Below, piece after piece: positions 12,697-22,748 of a stretch of DNA of 49,169 bases. The notes beneath the pieces were generated by a model. That model had not been told where the DNA came from, did not search any database, and saw only the letters and a program-made list of their open reading frames with translations. The stretch comes from Nitrospirota bacterium (GTDB lineage: Bacteria; Nitrospirota; Thermodesulfovibrionia; Thermodesulfovibrionales; UBA1546), in NCBI GenBank assembly GCA_016195565.1, contig JACPZK010000027.1, positions 1 through 49,169 of the forward strand, written 5' to 3'. The stretch's first letter is position 1. Every line of letters starts with the position of its first letter. A program made the position numbers and the translations under genes.

Positions 12697-13122
12697 ATGA
12701 AAAAAGCCTACACTCTCGGCACAGGCAGAAGGAGCGAGGAAGATTTTATGGAAATCCTCTTCGCCTATGACATCAAAACCCTTGTTGACGTCAGAATCTT
12801 TCCAAAGAGCAAGATGCCGGTATTCACGAGAGAAAATCTTGAAAACCTTCTCAAAAAAGAAGGCATAAACTATGTTTTCCTCGGCAGAGAACTCGGCGGT
12901 TTCAGGAAAGGAGGCTATGAGGCATATACGACTACCGAAGAGTTCAGGAAGGGAGTTGATGTGCTTGAAGATATTGCCTCAAAAGGAATAAGCGTAATCA
13001 TTTGCGCAGAGAGATTTCCGTGGAAGTGCCACAGGAGGTGGATTTCAAGGGAGCTTCACAGGCGCGGCTGGCAGGTGGAGCATATCCTTGACAAAGGAAA
13101 GGTCTGGGCTCCTAAAGGTTGA
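12697..13122 (+). CDS. DUF488 family protein
   Basis: A 141-residue protein matching the DUF488 pattern: an N-terminal YTLGTGRRSEEDF, LVDVRIFPKSK, YVFLGRELGG and a C-terminal CAERFPWKCHRRWIS with two conserved cysteines. The family has no firmly known function. It is divergent from asd, with a 134-bp gap that would hold both promoters. Confidence 0.88.
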   Translation: MKKAYTLGTGRRSEEDFMEILFAYDIKTLVDVRIFPKSKMPVFTRENLENLLKKEGINYVFLGRELGGFRKGGYEAYTTTEEFRKGVDVLEDIASKGISVIICAERFPWKCHRRWISRELHRRGWQVEHILDKGKVWAPKG

Positions 13123-13141
13123 GAGAAGTGTTTCCTCACTA

Positions 13142-13212
13142 TGTAATCAATTACACGCCCCTATAAACTTTTCCAGCCTATTGACATTAAATTAAAAAAT
13201 ATTGTTAACTAT
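13142..13212 (+). promoter_or_regulatory. Operator palindrome and promoter of the first pseudopilin
   Basis: A perfect 14-bp palindrome TGTAATCAATTACA (13142-13155) precedes TTGACA (13181-13186) and an 18-base block AAAAATATTGTTAACTAT (13195-13212). The palindrome and the 18-base block recur upstream of the VapBC module, so this control region was duplicated or is under common selection. Confidence 0.65.
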
Positions 13213-13288
13213 GCCCGTAAGAAATTAAGAGCAGTGCGTCTGAATCTCCAGGATTGTATATTAAATTTTTGGAAATCATAATTTACAG

Positions 13289-13783
13289 ATGAAGGACTGC
13301 GCAGGCGTTACCTTAATAGAGCTGATAACCGTTATTTCAATAATCGGCGTTCTGGTATTTGCCCTTGGATTTTCATTTCAAGACTGGAATGCCGCCTATA
13401 AAATTGAAAGCCAGATAAAAGAAATGCATTCCGATATAATGCACGCAAGGGTAAGGGCCATGTGCAAAAAAAGAGCGCACTTTGTGAAGTTGGAAGCAGC
13501 GCAATATACAATATACGAGGACACAAATCCTATGCCTGACGGCAATAACACGTTAGAGACAGAAGCAGACAATCTGGTTGTTCAAAAAGCCAGCGATTAT
13601 CCCATTGAATTTAATCTCGGTTTCGGTGACACACAATTCAGATTTGATAAGGACGGCTCCTCCTCACGTAATGGCAGAATCAGACTTGTTTCAACCGCGT
13701 CGCCCGATTACGACTGCATAAAACTGTTTTCAACGAGGATAAACCTCGGTAAGTGGGACAGCGCAGACTGTAACGCCAAATAA
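13289..13783 (+). CDS. Type IV minor pseudopilin, GspH/FimT type (copy 1)
   Basis: A 164-residue prepilin with a 6-residue leader ending in G, then VTLIELITVISIIGVLVFALGFSF; the E at +5 of the mature protein is kept and V replaces the common F at +1. FimT/FimU proteins are minor pilins of the priming complex at the pilus tip. The C-terminal SPDYDCIKLF and a final cysteine (SADCNAK) suggest a disulfide. It is clearly paralogous to the gene at 20053 (shared ALGFSFQDW and SPDYDCI). It stands alone, cut off from the main operon by a toxin-antitoxin module. No good ribosome site is seen before ATG 13289. Confidence 0.88.
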   Translation: MKDCAGVTLIELITVISIIGVLVFALGFSFQDWNAAYKIESQIKEMHSDIMHARVRAMCKKRAHFVKLEAAQYTIYEDTNPMPDGNNTLETEADNLVVQKASDYPIEFNLGFGDTQFRFDKDGSSSRNGRIRLVSTASPDYDCIKLFSTRINLGKWDSADCNAK

Positions 13784-13828
13784 GAATGCCTGTCTCCGAA
13801 TGCTGCACCCGCACAAAATAGAGCACTA

Positions 13829-13888
13829 TGTAATCCATTACACAATCAGTTCCCCTGTTGACACAAAAATAAAAATATTGTTAACTAT
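13829..13888 (+). promoter_or_regulatory. Operator palindrome and promoter of the VapBC module
   Basis: TGTAATCCATTACA (13829-13842) is followed by TTGACA (13858-13863) and the same 18-base block AAAAATATTGTTAACTAT (13871-13888) seen upstream of the first pseudopilin. A weak -10 (TTAACT) falls at 17-base spacing. Confidence 0.65.
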
Positions 13889-13922
13889 TAATGTGAGTTT
13901 ATAATTAACAAGGAGTTTAACT

Positions 13923-14195
13923 ATGAGTGTTAAAACAAGAGCGCATGTAATTGTTGACGAGAGCATTTTAAGAGAAATAGACCGCCTTGCCGGAAAGAAA
14001 AAAAGGAGCAGTTTTATTGCTGATGCGGCGAAAAAAGAACTGCAAAGACTCAATCAGCTATCTCTCCTCAATAAACTCAAGGGAGCATGGAAAGACGAAG
14101 ACCATCTTGATATGAGGGGCAAAGACGGCACATACAAAGTAGTGCGAAAACTGCGGCAGGAGAATGAAAAAACACTGAGGGAAAAACTTGCCTGA
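13923..14195 (+). CDS. VapB-type ribbon-helix-helix antitoxin
   Basis: A 90-residue protein whose N-terminus RAHVIVDESILREIDRLAGKKKRSSFI is a MetJ/Arc-type ribbon-helix-helix; the rest (AWKDEDHLDM and on) is an acidic toxin-binding tail. An AAGGAG site precedes ATG 13923. Its stop overlaps the toxin start by 8 bp. Such antitoxins normally bind a palindrome in their own promoter, here probably TGTAATCCATTACA. Confidence 0.85.
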   Translation: MSVKTRAHVIVDESILREIDRLAGKKKRSSFIADAAKKELQRLNQLSLLNKLKGAWKDEDHLDMRGKDGTYKVVRKLRQENEKTLREKLA

Positions 14196-14577
14196 TTATC
14201 TGCTTGATACTACTGCAATCATTGACTATCTCAGAGACAAAGGCGGAGTTCCTGAACTGCTTGAAAGATTGTGCATGGAGGGCGGACTGTTATGCTGCTG
14301 TCCTATAAATATTGTTGAGGTATATGCAGGAATGAAAGACAAGGAAAAGAATGTGACTGATGAATTTTTGAACAGTCTTAAATGTTATGAGACAACAGCA
14401 GGGATAGGCATTCTTGCAGGAGAATTAAAGAGAAAATACGCAAAGACAGGCATAACACTGAGCACAGCCGATGTTCTTATTGCTGCAACGGCAATAAAAC
14501 ACCACCTTACTCTTGTAACAAACAATGCAGCACACTTTCCACATGAGAGACTCGCGATGCTTAGCTATGAGAGATAA
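14188..14577 (+). CDS. VapC PIN-domain ribonuclease toxin
   Basis: A 129-residue PIN domain with the acidic residues in LLDTTAIIDYL (D7), NIVEVYAG (E) and LSTADVLIAATA (D); the last site is TNNAAHF, a common VapC variant. The start is TTG 14188, 8 bp inside the antitoxin, so translation is coupled. VapC toxins cleave tRNA or rRNA; the target of this one is unknown. The module sits between two parts of a pilus locus. Confidence 0.9.
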   Translation: MPDYLLDTTAIIDYLRDKGGVPELLERLCMEGGLLCCCPINIVEVYAGMKDKEKNVTDEFLNSLKCYETTAGIGILAGELKRKYAKTGITLSTADVLIAATAIKHHLTLVTNNAAHFPHERLAMLSYER

Positions 14578-14591
14578 ATATTGCATTAGCC

Positions 14592-14647
14592 ATTACACTA
14601 TGTAATCTATTACACACTCTGGAAGCCGATTACATAAAATTGTAACG
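14592..14647 (+). promoter_or_regulatory. Cluster of TGTAAT/ATTACA half-sites upstream of the pilus operon
   Basis: Half-sites lie at 14592 (ATTACA), 14601 (TGTAAT), 14609 (ATTACA), 14629 (ATTACA) and 14641 (TGTAA). The middle pair forms the perfect palindrome TGTAATCTATTACA (14601-14614). The cluster is roughly 70-120 bases upstream of the expected start of the sigma-54 promoter, where enhancer-binding proteins usually bind. Confidence 0.65.
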
Positions 14648-14688
14648 GCTTGACACTTCAACCCCTTGATTGGCAAGGATTTTCTTTG

Positions 14689-14704
14689 TGGCACGCAAGT
14701 TGCA
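14689..14704 (+). promoter_or_regulatory. Sigma-54 promoter of the PilY1 operon
   Basis: TGGCACGCAAGTTGCA matches the sigma-54 (RpoN) consensus TGGCAC-N5-TTGC(A/T) exactly, with 10 bases between the -24 GG and -12 GC. The first gene starts at 14749, giving a leader of about 35 bases. Sigma-54 control with PilR is established for type IV pili in several proteobacteria. Confidence 0.85.
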
Positions 14705-14748
14705 GAACAATAGAAAAGGTTATGGAAAAGGCTGAAAATGGAGGGGTT

Positions 14749-15081
14749 ATGAGAAAAAGAAAAACAATTATATTATTGCTGGCGGCATTTTCGGTATTTA
14801 TAGTCTCGGCATTTATAGACGGTTTTTATGCACTTGCCGACACTCCAACGGTTAAGGCAACCGGGACATGGACCTCGATAGAAGATGATGGAAGCGTTAT
14901 TATTGATGGAAAGGGCTATGGGGTTGATCCCTCTGTAATGGTTATAGACCGCAAGGGGAAGAGAGTTCCTCTTCGCAGCCTTTCACTCCCGGCAAAAGTC
15001 AGATTTGAATACATACAGGCAAAAACAGGCTTTATAATCGTGCTTATAGAGGAAGTTAAAAATAAAAGGAGTCAGCCATGA
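14749..15081 (+). CDS. Small exported protein before pilY1 (PilY2-like position)
   Basis: A 110-residue protein with a signal peptide (MRKRKTIILLLAAFSVFIVSA ... ALA) and a small beta-rich body (TGTWTSIEDDGSVIIDGKGY; FIIVLIEEV). ATG 14749 has a GGAGGGG site; an in-frame codon at 14650 lies upstream of the sigma-54 start and cannot be used. It overlaps pilY1 by ATGA. Pseudomonas has a similar-sized exported PilY2 next to PilY1; I see similarity of size and place only. Confidence 0.75.
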   Translation: MRKRKTIILLLAAFSVFIVSAFIDGFYALADTPTVKATGTWTSIEDDGSVIIDGKGYGVDPSVMVIDRKGKRVPLRSLSLPAKVRFEYIQAKTGFIIVLIEEVKNKRSQP

Positions 15082-18000
15082 AAAGCAATAATAGAAATAT
15101 GCCCAAGATATTATTCTCCCTGATTTTTTTAATCGTGCTGCTGCCTCTAACATTTGCCGAGGGCGCCCTCAATGACTATTGCGTTACCCCGCCGTTTTTA
15201 TCCCAAAGCATTCCGCCGAATGTACTTATCGTGCTGGATAACTCAGGCAGTATGTGCGACCAGGCTTATTCAAGCACCTACGACCCCACCCAGTTTGCAA
15301 AGATCTGCAGTAACGACTCAACAAAGAGCTGCACCACGAGCGCTGACTGCACCTCACCCGGAGTCTGTGACAGCTATTACTATGGATATTTTGACGGCTC
15401 AAAGAATTACAGATATACCACTAACAACAGGTGGGAGGAGACCACAAATGCGATGAGCACCGGCACTGTTGCTAACCCCATTGCCAGCGGAAGTTTTTTA
15501 AACTGGGCAACAATGGAAAGGGTTGAGGTAGCCAAAAAACTCTTGATGGGCGGCAAGGCAAATCCGCGTTCCTGGAACGGCTCGGTTACTGTAAAACTCA
15601 CTGGTGAAACTAACTGTTCTGTAAGTTTTCAGAAAGACTATGATACCAGCGCAGGAAACCTCATATATCCATTTGCAGGGAATTACCGTTTCAGCAGGTC
15701 AAATAGTAGTGATGATTTGAACATAAGTCCTATTAGCGGCGGAACTAATACATACTATACATATCCAAACGCTAATGTCAGTGTCCCTTCCGGATGGAGT
15801 GTCTATCCAACGTCAACAAGCGCCTATGCGGATGTGGATGAGGCAACCTCAGATGGAGATTCAACCTATATCCAGAATAACAATACCACTAGCCCTGTTA
15901 TACTGGATTATGACTACACACAGAGCAAACTTGCCGGCACTATTACTGTTACAGTGCAGGTAAGGGCAAAAAAAACAGCCAGCGGGGGCACAAGAAGAAT
16001 AAAAGGGGTGCTCAGGATAGGCGGGGTTGATTACGAGTCAAGCTATTCTAATCTTGGCACTTCATATTCCCTCTATTCTTTTGCATGGACCACCAATCCT
16101 GCAACAGGCGCGGCCTGGGCTTGGAGTGACATTAAATCAGCAGGGGTGGGGAGTATTCAGGGTTTTGGAGTTAAAGCTGATGGCAATTATACATCCATAT
16201 TTCCCCGTGTAACACAGGCCTATCTTGATGTTTCAGTTACCACTCCATCTGGCGGGCCTTATAATACGATAGTTGACCAGGGGTTGGTAGATGCAACAGG
16301 GATTATAGATACTCTGGCCAGTGACGTCAGGTTTGGACTGGCTTATTATAATACCAGTGAAGGTGCGTATGTGAATAACTATGTTGATTTTAGCACGTCC
16401 TCGAGCATGATCACCGCTATCAATAATATGAGCCCCTCTACATGGACGCCGCTGGCAGAGACTTTATATGAGATGACAAGGTATTTCAGACAGGATGATC
16501 CATATTATTCCTCCGGTGACTATAGCAAGGGCAATACTAACATCGTTCGCGATCCGTATTGGTATAAGTACTCTACTCTTGACCCTAGCCTCACTGACCA
16601 GTATGTGCCCTGCGCAAAGTCATTTGTCCTTTTCCTGACAGACGGCGAATCCACACAGGATAAGAACATCCCAGGAACAGGTTCAGGCGCCTGTTCCCTG
16701 ACGAATATAAAAGGGTGTTCCAGCGGATACAGATTTGCAGGAACTACCGTTGGAACGACATATCCGAACTATGGCACGGATTATTTGATTGATGTTGCCT
16801 TCTGGGCCAGGACAAATGATATGCGTTCAGGCTCATGCACTACCACTCCAACCTCATGGCAGCAGTGCATTCCCGGAACTCAGAATATAACCCTTTATTC
16901 CGTATTTATGTTTGGCACAGGCTCAACTCTACTTAAGGATGCGGCAATTGACGGAGGGTTTAATGACCTGAACGGGAATAACTTACCTGACTGCACCACT
17001 CTCCCTGCTGAATGTTACAGGGATACGGACAACGACGGAGTTATCCGCTCTGACGGCACGGATGACCCTCTCACATATTATGAAGGGGATGACGGCTATG
17101 CCCTTAAGACCAGCATCACAAACGCAATATCAGCTATCTTGAAGCGGGCGTCTTCAGGAACAGCGGCCTCTGTGCTTGCCTCAGGCGAGGGTTCAGGCGC
17201 AAACATCGTTCAGGCTATCTTTTATCCGAAAAGGACCTTTGATACTACAGAGATTGACTGGACAGCGACCCTGCAGAATCTTTGGTACTATCTGGACCTG
17301 AAACGGGGCAGCACAATCAGGGAGGACACTGTCAGCGATAAAGCGCTTAAGCTGGATCAAGATTATATAGTGCATTTCTCTTTTGACCAGACTGCGCAGA
17401 AGACACAGGCGAGCCGTTATAACAGTGATGCATACGGTACTGAGGGCGCTATCGTAGATACAGTAGATAGCGAGAACCTTAACTATCTCTGGGAAGCAGG
17501 CAGTATCCTGCAGAGCAGAAATATAGGAACTGATCCGAGGACTATATATACAACGATAAATGGAACCTCATTATTAACAGGAAATTTTACGACAGGGAAT
17601 GCCTCTGCGCTTCAGAGCATTCTTCAGGCGTCTTCTCTGACAGATGCTCAGAATATCATAAACTATGCCCGGGGCGACAGCGATGTGAATACAGGTCTTT
17701 ACCGTGCCAGGACCGTAACAAATGCCGGAACAACCGCAATATGGAGGCTTGGAGATATTATAAATTCCACCCCTCGCATTGCTTCATGGATACCACTGCA
17801 TAAATACGATGTAACATATAGCGATACAACCTACAAAAGCTTCATTGATTCATCCACATACACTAACAGGGGAATGGTTTTTGCCGGCGGCAACGATGGG
17901 ATGCTCCATGCCTTTAAACTCGGGAAGCTGGAACTTCCTAATGACAGTCATGCTGATACATGCACATTTGGGACAAATGATAAGGCCTGCCTGTCAAATC

Positions 18001-19637
18001 CGACAGGTTATCTCGGCGGTTCCAGCGTTCCTTTGGGCCATGAGATGTGGGCTTTTATTCCCAAGAATACGCTCCCGTATCTTAAATATCTCATGGACAA
18101 AAATTACTGCCACCTGTTCTATGTTGACGCAACGCCGTTTGTCTTTGACGCAAGCATTGGCATACCAACTGCATGCTCAGAGACTACAGATTACTGGAAA
18201 TGCGCAAAGACAGTTGATAGCTGGCGGACGATACTTATCGGCGGGATGAGATTGGGAGGAGCATGCAAGGCGCCTACATATACGGGGAGCCAGGGGGTAA
18301 AGATGCCTGCGACAGGCGAGGGGTATTCATCGTACTTTGCCCTTGATATAACAGATCCGTCAAGCCCTACTCTTTTATGGGAATTTAGTCATACTGATCT
18401 GGGTTATTCAACCACAGGCCCGACTGTAATGAGGATAAATGCAAGAACTGCGTCTGGCGGAGTCAGCACTGCTGACAAGAACAAGAACGGCAGGTGGTTT
18501 GTTGTATTTGCCTCAGGGCCGACAGGCCCCGTAGATACAACAGCGCATCAGTTTAAAGGTTATTCCGATCAGAACCTGAAATTATTCGTTCTCGACCTTA
18601 AGACAGGAGTAATTGCGACAACTGTTTCAGGAACTCCAACGCCTATAGATACCGGAATACCATACGCCTTTGGAGGCTCCCTGAACAATGCAGGCATAGA
18701 CTATGATTCTGACTATCAGGATGACGCGCTTTATATGGGTTATACAAAATCTGAAGATACAACTCCGGGCTCCTCAACAAGATGGACGCAGGGAGGGGTC
18801 ATAAGGCTTATTACGCGTGAAGACCTTACAGGCGATAACCTTGATGTTACCAGCGGCAATACTGCCCTTAATCCGAACAACTGGCTGTGGAGTTATGTGG
18901 CAAAGGATATCGGCGCTGTAACTTCTTCTATTGCGCATCTTGCGCATTATCCGACTAATGATACCACGCCTGACGCCGCATACTTGTACTTCGGCACAGG
19001 AAGGTATTTTTACAAGACAACCGAGGTGGATAATGCAAATGTGCAGAGAAGCCTCTTCGGGATAAAGGAGCCGTGTCTTGACACGATGAAGTTAATTTTT
19101 AACACAGGGGATGCTGTTTGTGACGGCACAAATACTGTTTGCGACCTGATGACGGCAGGACACTTAGTTGACAGCGGCAGTCATGCCTGCATTTACAATG
19201 CAACGGCGGACACTGCCACTACAACCGACCCGGACGGCTGGTACATAAATCTGGATGCATCGGCAGGCACTTCTTTTGCCGAAAGGACTATAACAGACCC
19301 ATTGGCAACAACTATCGGCGCGGTATTCTTTACAACATACGCCCCAAATTCGGACATCTGCACCCAGGGCGGTTCGACGTATCTCTGGGGCCTGAAGTAT
19401 GATACAGGCGGGTCAATAAATGGAATGCTGCAGGGAACGGCTCTCATTCAGGTTTCAACCGGAGCAATAGAAGAGGTTAATTTGGGGACGGCATTTGTGG
19501 ATAAAACGGCAGGAGGCAGGGCAGACGAAGGAAGAAGGACAGGCGCTATTACGGGCGCGCCTCCTACAGGACAGGGACTCTCTATAGTCGTGCCGCCTGC
19601 GCCTTTAAAGAAGATGCTGCATATAAGGAAGGAATAG
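15078..19637 (+). CDS. pilY1: PilY1-like type IV pilus tip adhesin
   Basis: The 1519-residue exported protein has a signal peptide ending near residue 28, and a von Willebrand A domain with MIDAS motif DNSGS (residues 54-58) and a later TDGES loop. From about residue 700 to the end it is the PilC/PilY1 beta-propeller (MVFAGGNDGMLHAF, FALDITDPSSPTLLWEF, YLYFGTGRYFY). A calcium-loop-like D-x-D-x-D pattern (IDYDSDYQDDALYMG) lies near residue 1207. The vWA domain is interrupted: residues ~165-395 hold an extra beta-rich region, whose second half (~269-390) resembles a jelly-roll binding module. A cysteine-rich patch lies at ~75-98. PilY1 primes pilus assembly and acts in adhesion and surface sensing. 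The ribosome site is AAAAGGAG. Confidence 0.93.
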   Translation: MKSNNRNMPKILFSLIFLIVLLPLTFAEGALNDYCVTPPFLSQSIPPNVLIVLDNSGSMCDQAYSSTYDPTQFAKICSNDSTKSCTTSADCTSPGVCDSYYYGYFDGSKNYRYTTNNRWEETTNAMSTGTVANPIASGSFLNWATMERVEVAKKLLMGGKANPRSWNGSVTVKLTGETNCSVSFQKDYDTSAGNLIYPFAGNYRFSRSNSSDDLNISPISGGTNTYYTYPNANVSVPSGWSVYPTSTSAYADVDEATSDGDSTYIQNNNTTSPVILDYDYTQSKLAGTITVTVQVRAKKTASGGTRRIKGVLRIGGVDYESSYSNLGTSYSLYSFAWTTNPATGAAWAWSDIKSAGVGSIQGFGVKADGNYTSIFPRVTQAYLDVSVTTPSGGPYNTIVDQGLVDATGIIDTLASDVRFGLAYYNTSEGAYVNNYVDFSTSSSMITAINNMSPSTWTPLAETLYEMTRYFRQDDPYYSSGDYSKGNTNIVRDPYWYKYSTLDPSLTDQYVPCAKSFVLFLTDGESTQDKNIPGTGSGACSLTNIKGCSSGYRFAGTTVGTTYPNYGTDYLIDVAFWARTNDMRSGSCTTTPTSWQQCIPGTQNITLYSVFMFGTGSTLLKDAAIDGGFNDLNGNNLPDCTTLPAECYRDTDNDGVIRSDGTDDPLTYYEGDDGYALKTSITNAISAILKRASSGTAASVLASGEGSGANIVQAIFYPKRTFDTTEIDWTATLQNLWYYLDLKRGSTIREDTVSDKALKLDQDYIVHFSFDQTAQKTQASRYNSDAYGTEGAIVDTVDSENLNYLWEAGSILQSRNIGTDPRTIYTTINGTSLLTGNFTTGNASALQSILQASSLTDAQNIINYARGDSDVNTGLYRARTVTNAGTTAIWRLGDIINSTPRIASWIPLHKYDVTYSDTTYKSFIDSSTYTNRGMVFAGGNDGMLHAFKLGKLELPNDSHADTCTFGTNDKACLSNPTGYLGGSSVPLGHEMWAFIPKNTLPYLKYLMDKNYCHLFYVDATPFVFDASIGIPTACSETTDYWKCAKTVDSWRTILIGGMRLGGACKAPTYTGSQGVKMPATGEGYSSYFALDITDPSSPTLLWEFSHTDLGYSTTGPTVMRINARTASGGVSTADKNKNGRWFVVFASGPTGPVDTTAHQFKGYSDQNLKLFVLDLKTGVIATTVSGTPTPIDTGIPYAFGGSLNNAGIDYDSDYQDDALYMGYTKSEDTTPGSSTRWTQGGVIRLITREDLTGDNLDVTSGNTALNPNNWLWSYVAKDIGAVTSSIAHLAHYPTNDTTPDAAYLYFGTGRYFYKTTEVDNANVQRSLFGIKEPCLDTMKLIFNTGDAVCDGTNTVCDLMTAGHLVDSGSHACIYNATADTATTTDPDGWYINLDASAGTSFAERTITDPLATTIGAVFFTTYAPNSDICTQGGSTYLWGLKYDTGGSINGMLQGTALIQVSTGAIEEVNLGTAFVDKTAGGRADEGRRTGAITGAPPTGQGLSIVVPPAPLKKMLHIRKE

Positions 19638-19688
19638 CTGATAGCAATCAGCTATCAGCTTTCAGCAGAAAATAGCTGAGAGCAGAAA
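19637..19688. repeat. Left heptamer array of the IVP unit
   Basis: Units GCTGATA, GCAATCA, GCTATCA, GCTTTCA, GCAGAAA, then 3 bases, then GCTGAGA and GCAGAAA. The array starts at the last base of the pilY1 stop codon and ends 6 bases before the IVP start. Confidence 0.85.
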
Positions 19689-19693
19689 GAGAT

Positions 19694-20053
19694 ATGAAGG
19701 ATTTCAAGGAATTGAAAGTTTGGCAAAGAAGCCATGAATTAGCCCTAAAAGTTTACAGGGCTACAACATTATTCCCAAGGGAAGAGATTTATGGACTGAC
19801 AAGCCAAATTAGGCGCTCCTGTGTTTCTATATGCGCTAATATTGCAGAAGGCTGCGGGAGAAATGGAGACGCCGAGCTTGCTCGTTTCTTTCAGATAGGA
19901 ATGGGTTCGGCAAGTGAATTAGAATGTCATTTATTGCTTGCTCGTGATCTGGACTTATTGAACACACCGGAATACGAGCAGCTTACAGGTGAGTTGATCG
20001 AAGTGAAACGCATGCTGACATCATTTATTCAGAAGCTGAGGGCTGATAGCTGA
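19694..20053 (+). CDS. Four-helix-bundle protein (IVP/S23, TIGR02436 type)
   Basis: A 119-residue all-helical protein with the family signature FKELKVWQRSHELALKVYRA, YGLTSQIRRSCVSICANIAEG, and FFQIGMGSASELECHLLLA. Relatives are encoded by intervening sequences in 23S rRNA genes and share a fold with the Avd protein of diversity-generating retroelements; the function is unknown. It is a foreign body in this operon, between pilY1 and the minor pilins. Heptamer arrays border it on both sides, and its last codons are made of them. The stop overlaps the next ATG (TGATG). Confidence 0.9.
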   Translation: MKDFKELKVWQRSHELALKVYRATTLFPREEIYGLTSQIRRSCVSICANIAEGCGRNGDAELARFFQIGMGSASELECHLLLARDLDLLNTPEYEQLTGELIEVKRMLTSFIQKLRADS

Positions 20054-20062
20054 TGGCTAATA
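20035..20062. repeat. Right heptamer array of the IVP unit
   Basis: Four units (GCTGAGG, GCTGATA, GCTGATG, GCTAATA). They encode the last residues of the IVP protein and provide the start codon and first residues of the following pseudopilin. Confidence 0.85.
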
Positions 20063-20532
20063 CAAGAGGCGTAACGCTGACAGAATTAATAATTGTTATT
20101 GCCATAGTCGGCATTCTTGTCGTTGCCCTTGGTTTTTCGTTTCAAGACTGGATAGGAAAGTATAAGGTTGAAGCGCAAACGAAACAGATATACTCTGACC
20201 TGATGAACGCAAGGGCCAGGGCAATGCAGTTTAACCGCATATATTATGTGCAGAGTGTAGGAGCTCGTTCTTATAGTCTAATTGAGGATGCAAATGACAA
20301 CAGCGTTAATGATGACGCAGCCATTGCGGGGTTCCCAAAGCCAAATTTTGAATATGATATAACATGGGGCGTAGTAGCAATGCCCATTACCTTTGACAAG
20401 AGAGGCAACATAACAAATACTGGAACTATAAGCATAGCGAGCACTTTCAGCCCGGATTATGACTGCATTTTCATTGAACAAACACGAATAAATATGGGAC
20501 AGTTGAGCGGAGGAAACTGTGTTGCAAAATAA
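20053..20532 (+). CDS. Type IV minor pseudopilin, GspH/FimT type (copy 2)
   Basis: A 159-residue prepilin: leader MANTRG, then VTLTELIIVIAIVGILVVALGFSF with E at +5. The body and tail (STFSPDYDCIFI, final GGNCVAK) match the pseudopilin at 13289. It heads the minor-pilin block FimT-PilV-PilW-PilX. Its start codon lies in the heptamer array that ends the IVP unit, so its original upstream sequence was probably replaced. Confidence 0.9.
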   Translation: MANTRGVTLTELIIVIAIVGILVVALGFSFQDWIGKYKVEAQTKQIYSDLMNARARAMQFNRIYYVQSVGARSYSLIEDANDNSVNDDAAIAGFPKPNFEYDITWGVVAMPITFDKRGNITNTGTISIASTFSPDYDCIFIEQTRINMGQLSGGNCVAK

Positions 20533-20938
20533 AGGCGTAACTCTTGTTGAGGTGATGATTGCGCTTGTTGTGCTCCTTATCGTTTTTATGGGGCTTATAC
20601 AGGCGTCATTGGTGAGCATTGACCAGAACGTGCGGAACGAGGTGAGGGATGAGGCTGTCAGGATAGCGGCAGAGTATATGACAAGGACGAAGGCTACTGC
20701 CTTCAGCGCTGTTACAGCAACGGGTATTAACTGTGCTGCAGGTCCAGCGACCTGGACTGCATTTCCGGGAACCCCTACAGTTGCAAGAGACTTCAGGAAT
20801 ATGCCGATAACATACAATATAGGCAGATGTGTCGATGATCTGGATACTGAAAACAAGAGAGTTGGTGTTGTGGTTACATGGCCTTATAAGGGCGAAAATT
20901 TTACGCATACGATTTTATCTACTCTGAGGTCTAAATGA
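20519..20938 (+). CDS. pilV: Type IV minor pilin, PilV-like
   Basis: A 139-residue prepilin with leader MLQNKG and hydrophobic helix VTLVEVMIALVVLLIVFMGL. The start is GTG 20519 with a GGAGG site, inside the end of the preceding gene (14-bp overlap). The body has a cysteine pair (GINCAAG and GRCVDD). Position, size and the RVGVVVTWPYKG motif fit PilV of the tip complex. Confidence 0.85.
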   Translation: MLQNKGVTLVEVMIALVVLLIVFMGLIQASLVSIDQNVRNEVRDEAVRIAAEYMTRTKATAFSAVTATGINCAAGPATWTAFPGTPTVARDFRNMPITYNIGRCVDDLDTENKRVGVVVTWPYKGENFTHTILSTLRSK

Positions 20939-22113
20939 TAAAGAAACAGGATGGATTTACCTTAGTGGAGCTTATGATAACAATGGTAATCTTTGTGCTT
21001 GCCATTGCAGCAGCCTCCAACATATTCACAGCGATATTAACCCAGTTTAAACAGCAGAGCAAGATAGCAGAGACAAATATAGAGGGAGTCGTCGGTTTTG
21101 AAACTCTGAGATATGATGTTGAACAGGCAGGATACGGCCTGCCGTGGGATATGAATGGAGCCACATATGCAGCAGAGGCTGTAAATGATGGGATGACTGT
21201 TCAGAACGAGACCTTATATAATGACGCCCCCAATGGGATACCGAGGGCTGTTGTAAGTGGGGACAATGTTGGGATGAACGGTTCGGATGTGCTTGTTATT
21301 AAGGCGACAAATGCCTCTACTGCTGCTGCTGCGCGGAGATGGACGTATGTTTCAAATTCAGGAGCGGCGAACACATTCAGAACATGGGCTGGAGTCATAG
21401 ACGAAACTTGGCAAGGCACAGACAGCATAATAGTTATTAAGCCGGTGTTAGGTGACAGGCAAAGAGTTCTGATTAATAATGCAGGCTTTTCTATATTACT
21501 TAATGCGCTGCCATCTTTTGGTGCTGGGGGGGCTGCCACTGCCTTTGAACCCTTAGCCGGCACTGATGATACATATATTGTCTATGGTATTGGTGACGCT
21601 GTTGCAAGAATGCCGTTTAACAGAACGGACTATTATGTCAGAAGACCTGCAGGGAATGCGATGCCTTCACAATGCGCTCAAAATACTGGGGTTCTCTACA
21701 AGGCTACTGTTAACCATGGTGATGGAAATTTAACTGAATTTCCTTTAGTTGACTGTGTGGCTGATTTTCAGGTGGTTTTTCGACTGGATATGGATGAGGA
21801 TGGTACGATCGGGACATCTGCAAATGCTGACGGAAGTACTGTAAGCAGTTCTGAAGGCGCTAATGTTGCTACTGTTCAGGCTACACTTGCCGATGCAGCA
21901 TTACTCAGACAACGATTAAAGGAGATAAGAATTTATATTATCGCGCATGAGGGGCAATTGGATGCTACATATACCTCTGCTTCAACGATAACAATGGACG
22001 ATATAGGAGGCATCGGGGCGTTCAAGGTTTTTGATTTCGCGGCCCTGGGTATAAGCCGGAATTACAGATGGAAGTTATATACACTTGTGGTAACACCGAC
22101 TAATTTGAGGTAG
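20935..22113 (+). CDS. pilW: Type IV minor pilin, PilW-like
   Basis: A 392-residue prepilin: leader MIKKQDG, then FTLVELMITMVIFVLAIAA. It is large for a minor pilin, as PilW proteins are, with LRYDVEQAGYGLP typical of the family right after the helix. It starts in an ATGA overlap with pilV. The body is rich in Ala, Gly and Thr, with few cysteines. Confidence 0.87.
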   Translation: MIKKQDGFTLVELMITMVIFVLAIAAASNIFTAILTQFKQQSKIAETNIEGVVGFETLRYDVEQAGYGLPWDMNGATYAAEAVNDGMTVQNETLYNDAPNGIPRAVVSGDNVGMNGSDVLVIKATNASTAAAARRWTYVSNSGAANTFRTWAGVIDETWQGTDSIIVIKPVLGDRQRVLINNAGFSILLNALPSFGAGGAATAFEPLAGTDDTYIVYGIGDAVARMPFNRTDYYVRRPAGNAMPSQCAQNTGVLYKATVNHGDGNLTEFPLVDCVADFQVVFRLDMDEDGTIGTSANADGSTVSSSEGANVATVQATLADAALLRQRLKEIRIYIIAHEGQLDATYTSASTITMDDIGGIGAFKVFDFAALGISRNYRWKLYTLVVTPTNLR

Positions 22114-22115
22114 AT

Positions 22116-22748
22116 ATGGAAATTCAAAATTCAAAATTCAAAATTCAAAATTTAAATGAAAAAGGCATTGCCCTTGTGATGGTCTTGGTTCTCTCCGCTA
22201 TTGCGCTTGCGATGGTATCTGCCTTGCTTTTTATGGTCATTCACGGCACAAGGCTCTCAGGCTATCACAGGTTTTTCAGAACAGCGGAAGAAGCAGGACT
22301 TGGCGGCGCTGAAATAGCGGCAGCATTTATTGAAAGTAGAGGGGTGCCGACCGCCAATCTGACGGCTATGGTGTCGACTCAAGGTAGTGCTTGTTTAGCG
22401 CAAAAAATGTCCACTACAAGAGGCGGAGTTTGGCCGGCATCCGCAGGCTGGACAAGCTGTGTTGCTGCTAATGACGTCTCAATGGATCCCACGACAAATC
22501 CCGATCTTCAATTTGATTTGAGCAACTTCAGGGTTTATACAAAAATCGTTGATACTGTTGAAGGCAATACTGCTTCAGGCGGACTTGTTACAGGGGGCGG
22601 CTCATTAGGCGGCTCAGGAGTTGTTTCTGCCTCTTCAGGAATTACCAGTCCTCCCCGTATACCCTATTTATACAGGGTAGAAATTCAGGCGGAGGCTACT
22701 GCTAATCCAAGAGAACGTTCAAGGTATTCGGGCTTATATGCCTATTGA
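22116..22748 (+). CDS. pilX: Type IV minor pilin, PilX-like
   Basis: A 210-residue protein with a PilX N-terminal pattern: leader up to NLNEKG, then IALVMVLVLSAIALAMVSALLF and later FRTAEEAGLGGAEIA. Position +5 of the mature helix is V rather than E, as often in PilX/GspK-like pilins. Its first ~12 residues are encoded by tandem heptamers. A Gly/Ser-rich stretch (SGGLVTGGGSLGGSG) lies near residue 155. Confidence 0.85.
   Translation: MEIQNSKFKIQNLNEKGIALVMVLVLSAIALAMVSALLFMVIHGTRLSGYHRFFRTAEEAGLGGAEIAAAFIESRGVPTANLTAMVSTQGSACLAQKMSTTRGGVWPASAGWTSCVAANDVSMDPTTNPDLQFDLSNFRVYTKIVDTVEGNTASGGLVTGGGSLGGSGVVSASSGITSPPRIPYLYRVEIQAEATANPRERSRYSGLYAY
22122..22156. repeat. Tandem heptamers at the start of pilX
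   Basis: Four ATTCAAA units and one ATTTAAA. They encode the repetitive IQNSKFKIQN part of the prepilin leader. Confidence 0.9.

Follow-up and report, generated by a model that had tools for sequence, protein, structure and literature searches.

The DNA analysed here, a 49,169-nucleotide stretch from a groundwater lineage of Nitrospirota that we call the window, carries an operon for a PilY1-like type IV pilus tip adhesin and minor pilins, preceded by a further pseudopilin gene, a toxin–antitoxin pair and three copies of a short palindrome. The features are as follows.

13142–13155, plus strand: palindrome copy 1, TGTAATCAATTACA, 5′ of GspH1, at the left edge of the presumed insertion
13181–13212, plus strand: promoter-like block TTGACA...AAAAATATTGTTAACTAT 5′ of GspH1, 39 nucleotides after the start of copy 1
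13289–13783, plus strand: GspH1, encoding a minor pseudopilin with an N-methylation motif (GspH); it lies in the interval from copy 1 to copy 2
13829–13842, plus strand: palindrome copy 2, TGTAATCCATTACA, 5′ of vapB
13858–13905, plus strand: candidate vapB promoter region, with TTGACA 29 nucleotides after the start of copy 2, a block at 13871–13888, and TTGTTA-16-TATAAT at 13878–13905
13923–14195, plus strand: vapB, ribbon-helix-helix-like antitoxin (weak evidence)
14188–14577, plus strand: vapC, PIN-domain toxin (PF01850, 2e-14)
14601–14614, plus strand: palindrome copy 3, TGTAATCTATTACA, matching both the lone site in GWC2_42_7 and the sites found 5′ of pilY1 in the order
14615–14637, plus strand: putative second half of the enhancer, in which ATTACA at 14629–14634 forms an outer dyad, TATGTAATC...GATTACATA
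14659–14671, minus strand: IHF-like site, AATCAAGGGGTTG (exact WATCAANNNNTTR)
14689–14704, plus strand: predicted sigma-54 −24/−12 promoter, TGGCACGCAAGTTGCA, 88 nucleotides downstream of copy 3
14749–15081, plus strand: small ORF for a secreted product, heading the pilY1 operon (79% in GWC2_42_7)
15078–19637, plus strand: PilY1-like tip adhesin, so named from its gene neighbourhood; 41 of 61 genomes have a homologue
20053–22748, plus strand: minor pilins GspH2, PilV-like, PilW-like and PilX-like

The vapB and vapC reading frames overlap by 8 nucleotides, with the PIN toxin gene 3′ of the antitoxin gene, as in VapBC type II modules, in which a small antitoxin gene overlaps a PIN toxin gene. 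The vapB product matches no Pfam family, and its hits to HicB3 and CdbA chains stay below threshold. No curated family in Pfam or NCBIfam exceeds its cut-off for the PilY1-like protein, which is therefore named by its gene context and by homology among these genomes. A small ORF inside the operon (19694–20053), which we take to be of the four-helix-bundle (23S rRNA intervening protein-like) type, lies elsewhere within the operon in relatives. GspH1 has a homologue in genome G004 (81% over 107 amino acids, frameshifted there), which sits directly 3′ of the DUF488 gene and is followed by a HEPN gene with a seemingly disrupted end (L184, G004:C133:1-3500); no palindrome is present in that segment. 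Rfam searches of 13000–15100 return no RNA element, even at an E-value of 1.

The three palindromes lie exactly where an earlier, sequence-only reading of this DNA placed them. Their six-base arms are perfect (TGTAAT-NN-ATTACA), the two-base spacer is asymmetric, and all three share the longer CACTATGTAATCNATTACAC; in the window's family, the C-first orientation of the spacer reads towards pilY1. The cluster of half-sites described around copy 3 is real as well, with ATTACA at 14592, 14609 and 14629, and an extra half-site 28 nucleotides after the start of the palindrome recurs across the family. A genome-wide count of the 14-mer, which the same reading had proposed as a check, finds three copies of TGTAATNNATTACA in the 2.30-Mb genome (G000), all within 1.5 kb, and a reversed control pattern finds zero in that genome; with two mismatches allowed, the remaining matches are dispersed over other contigs. 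Because the only exact copies sit at one locus and the control yields none, we do not regard the clustering as accidental. Intergenic DNA is AT-rich, and at three mismatches the window holds 18 matches against 13 expected, as pure chance or a simple-repeat artefact might produce, but the exact copies are clustered and absent from the rest of the 2.3 Mb, and the site is enriched 5′ of pilY1 throughout the order, leaving that explanation with a negligible probability.

Among 61 relatives, the palindrome recurs a few hundred bases 5′ of pilY1. When one upstream region was taken for each of 46 pilY1 genes across the order and dinucleotide shuffles served as the expectation, the site was found with at most one mismatch in 21 regions from seven families (0.15 expected) and exactly in 14 (0.01 in shuffles); at one mismatch, 25 regions are without it. 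The nearest named records with the longer pattern are Nitrospirae/Thermodesulfovibrionales metagenome-assembled genomes (MAGs) such as GWF2_44_13, GWC2_42_7, CG1_02_44_142 and FW300_bin.22, and the same layout occurs 5′ of pilin genes outside the order, in a Troglogloeales MAG and in the deep-sea MAG Dive96_bin10.193. Judged by this distribution, the site appears to be old in the order Thermodesulfovibrionales, and copy 3 appears to be the ancestral enhancer-like site of the pilY1 operon. Most other genome-collection matches outside Nitrospirota we judge to be chance, as they do not lie near pilus genes like those of the window (exceptions, L154 and L158), and a single viral contig with the 19-base pattern carries it inside unrelated phage-like ORFs, which we also judge to be chance. 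A search of the literature, confined to an open-access library, retrieved no earlier account of the site or of the array.

Where a −24/−12 element of the form GG-N10-GC is recognisable across the order, it lies 68–144 nucleotides downstream of the site, and 222 at one locus. Two sites stand 21 nucleotides apart in four genomes (G020, G041, G049 and G050) and 20 apart in a fifth. An IHF site between enhancer and sigma-54 promoter is common, not obligatory; here, an exact IHF consensus occurs in 5 of 18 enhancer–promoter intervals, the window's included, against 0.14 expected, three of the five being orthologous. Together, the dyad, its tandem spacing, its distance from the promoter, the IHF-like site and the sigma-54 core are arranged as in enhancers that serve activators of the NtrC class. 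Upstream activating sequences of the NtrC family (NtrC, NifA TGT-N10-ACA, PilR) share this plan, being short dyads in tandem copies about two helical turns apart, placed 70–140 nucleotides before a −24/−12 element, often with an IHF-like site between, and with pilus genes among their targets. Control of pilus genes by sigma-54 activators is established in several other bacteria (PMC3333781). The site in the window, TGTAATC-N-ATTACA (TGT-N8-ACA), nevertheless differs from the Pseudomonas aeruginosa PilR site, described as TGT-N11-AGA plus GTCT (PMC6058289), and its target here is the pilY1 operon. The P. aeruginosa fimU-pilVWXY1Y2E operon likewise unites minor pilins and PilY1, and is controlled via AlgR/Vfr and dysregulated in pilR mutants (PMC4064291, PMC6058289), whereas in the window a predicted sigma-54 promoter lies directly before the pilY1 operon.

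Taking these features together, we consider it likely that TGTAATC-N-ATTACA is the enhancer of a sigma-54 pilY1/minor-pilin operon, with GspH1 and toxin–antitoxin units inserted just upstream. Paired dimers of an NtrC/PilR-class enhancer-binding protein would occupy the site, and IHF would bend the DNA towards RNA polymerase at the 14689–14704 promoter. The window's genome encodes 16 full sigma-54 activators, one of them, PilR-like, in a pilB-pilT-pilC-pilS-pilR cluster; its gene is at 93613–94980 of contig C11 (L271:5614-6981, minus strand). The proposal of one activator common to pilus and toxin genes, for instance a PilR-like protein, is supported in its pilus half by the conserved enhancer-like placement of the site, its tandem copies, the IHF-like sites and the sigma-54 core; its toxin half is taken up below. 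The exact-site targets of the predicted regulator would amount to one locus, which is unusual for PilR.

The stretch from DUF488 or relA to the enhancer is empty in GWC2_42_7, G007, G012 and G015, four relatives that are uninserted and have one site. Compared with GWC2_42_7, the window has an additional ~1.46 kb, made up of GspH1 and vapBC and bounded by two copies of the site; on the left the flanks align up to copy 1, matching the empty site as far as base 13156, and on the right they align from copy 3. Many of the genomes compared are fragmented MAGs, and parts of G003, G004, G008 and G013 lie beyond contig ends. In the window's family, most loci hold small toxin–antitoxin units beside or between enhancer repeats: VapBC in G000, G008, G010, G013 and G014; HEPN/MNT in G001 and G003; DUF2283 in G003 and G005; TumE in G011; and DUF7718/DUF5647 in G008. 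A TumE-like pair occupies the locus in G041, from another family. Further enhancer copies separate several of these units, culminating in four exact copies and a decayed fifth in G003, an array with no match among 72,556 plasmids. By pairwise alignment, the HEPN/MNT unit and the site that follows it are identical at 721 of 735 positions between G001 and G003, in different surroundings, and the DUF2283 unit with its site is 98.8% identical over 250 nucleotides between G003 and G005; for both units, similarity begins just 5′ of the start codon and stops at or soon after the repeat. Two further kinds of gene pair were seen at pilY1 loci. An opposite-strand unit of two genes (75 and ~104–112 amino acids), ~84% alike between G003 (L066:4971-5660) and G011 (L074:8077-8760) and matching no Pfam family, is possibly an undescribed toxin–antitoxin pair. 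TumA/TumE-like gene pairs, below or without a Pfam cut-off, lie at pilY1 loci of two families (L074:7401-8074, L079:8194-8837).

This variety bears on the first hypothesis of the sequence-only reading, namely that VapB, by binding the palindrome upstream of its own gene, co-regulates the pilus genes. Copy 2 is suitably placed 80–94 nucleotides before the vapB start, and all five VapB homologues found in the window's family (G000, G008, G010, G013 and G014) adjoin a site. Comparison with relatives in which vapBC is absent, another check that had been suggested, tells against VapB as the ligand: the palindrome is kept 5′ of pilY1 in G001, G005, G011, G012, G015, G020, G038, G041, G045, G047 and G050, in none of which a VapB homologue was found, and genomes of this kind form the majority of those with the site. 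The palindrome is also present at empty loci, accompanies other, unrelated types of toxin–antitoxin unit, and falls within vapB's own promoter region only in the window and G014; in G008, G010 and G013, a copy follows vapC instead. The palindrome in our data is thus not specific to VapBC, and we regard binding by VapB as very improbable. A better candidate for its operator would be the 18-base block at 13871–13888, whose GTTAAC core overlaps the vapB −35 element.

A second contrast separates the copies by their neighbours. A sigma-54 core accompanies 11 of 11 copies directly 5′ of pilY1 or the operon's small lead gene and 1 of 10 copies, weakly, 5′ of toxin–antitoxin genes (Fisher p = 3e-5), in a comparison that uses our own consensus and gene assignments, was not blind, and includes related loci that are not independent; G008, whose first copy is followed by a remnant of pilY1, was excluded for that reason. 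Lacking the core, the copies beside toxin–antitoxin genes look like duplicated remnants and not like working sigma-54 promoters. Most of them retain an exact palindrome despite the lost core, which hints at a second role or at recent copying. Taken with the empty sites and the recurring units, this contrast supports reading the window as a pilus enhancer that has been duplicated, GspH1 and vapBC sitting between its copies. The intergenic stretch just upstream of the enhancer would then be a hotspot for insertion of toxin–antitoxin units, here also of GspH1, and such insertions would often leave another enhancer copy as a border. GspH1 and vapBC have the marks expected of these insertions, namely sigma-70-type promoter-like sequences and adjacent enhancer copies without a sigma-54 core. 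The idea that VapBC belongs to the pilus circuit is not supported, because the sites on the toxin–antitoxin side are without the core and because several kinds of insertion, vapBC among them, are interchangeable here; its companion, that the module is no chance passenger, is right to the extent that placement is not random, with all five family VapB homologues next to a site.

In the window's species, GspH1 and vapB might nonetheless answer to the predicted pilus regulator through sigma-70-type promoters, so that the toxin and the extra pilin follow the pilus signal. As had been described, an 18-base block, AAAAATATTGTTAACTAT, occurs at both 13195–13212 and 13871–13888, and its 16-base core has no third exact occurrence in the genome, where the closest other match differs at two positions. 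With TTGACA 39 and 29 nucleotides after copies 1 and 2, the blocks sit about one helical turn apart relative to their palindromes, and for this reason we keep such a sigma-70 effect under consideration. There are only two examples, however, which may be one promoter copied along with its site, and the toxin–antitoxin genes of relatives have different upstream sequences, several with TGTGGTATAAT-like elements; we therefore think the effect unlikely.

The operon itself also appears, from its sequence, to have been swapped between species. PilY1 and the minor pilins (window 15078–22748; L067, L073, L074 and L077) fall into two very different allele groups that cross genera, one with the window, G005 and G014 and the other with G001, G010, G011 and G015, while flanking genes are ~70–94% identical despite the differing alleles. 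G001 belongs to the window's genus, and its PilY1 is 28% identical to that of the window and 64% to that of G010, from another genus, although G001 and the window share 93% identity in asd and 90% in DUF488. The right-hand neighbours of the operon are conserved across the family, and in G008 a 26-residue N-terminal remnant of pilY1 lies between two enhancer copies. Successive replacements of the operon, through homologous recombination around the enhancer, would account for this pattern, leave extra enhancer copies behind and need no special enzyme.

Alternatively, the repeat could be the recombination border of a cassette system, integron-like with a different site, in which units move as a gene plus its repeat. 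Chromosomal integron arrays similarly alternate repeats with small interchangeable units rich in toxin–antitoxin pairs, and several observations would fit: the G003 array, the ~98% likeness of units between species with breaks at the repeat, the vapC stop codon formed by the repeat itself in G008, G010, G013 and G014, and the TIGR02249 integron integrases that exceed the cut-off in 6 of 16 family genomes (L276–L281). Yet the site is single-copy at insertion-free loci and tracks sigma-54 promoters in other families, as a promoter element with single-copy orthologues and not an attC would; no copy of it lies in the sequence retrieved around the six integrase genes, only one of which shares a contig with pilY1 (G010, ~64 kb away); and G000, G003, G011 and G014 have arrays or insertions with no integrase over the cut-off. 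We rejected an integron attC, given that no integrase is linked and the consensus CTATGTAATCCATTACACAATCAGGAAGGCGATTACATAAAAT contains neither GTT nor AAC, and so has no GTTRRRY or RYYYAAC core boxes. The dif/pdif modules of Acinetobacter plasmids also bound toxin–antitoxin units by short repeats, but the repeat described here, which we take to be unrelated to the dif sequence, is chromosomal and tied to one operon. Homologous recombination would yield the same junctions; site-specific cassette exchange is less likely, and a dedicated cassette system is in our estimation doubtful, somewhat more so than the sigma-70 effect. A broader conjecture, about as improbable as that effect, is that the enhancer repeat doubles as an exchange border at which toxin–antitoxin cassettes and whole alleles of the pilus-tip operon swap between species, with the addiction modules locking in new tips.

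Read as a pilus enhancer with units inserted beside it, the palindrome provides a concrete, testable regulatory site for the type IV pilus tip of uncultured subsurface Nitrospirota. The locus also represents a chromosomal hotspot at which unrelated toxin–antitoxin pairs accumulate next to a promoter element and between its copies, with no obvious recombinase. More broadly, tests can now be directed at the activator responsible for PilY1 control in these bacteria, and at the reason why toxin–antitoxin units gather at an adhesin operon that is itself apparently swapped between species.
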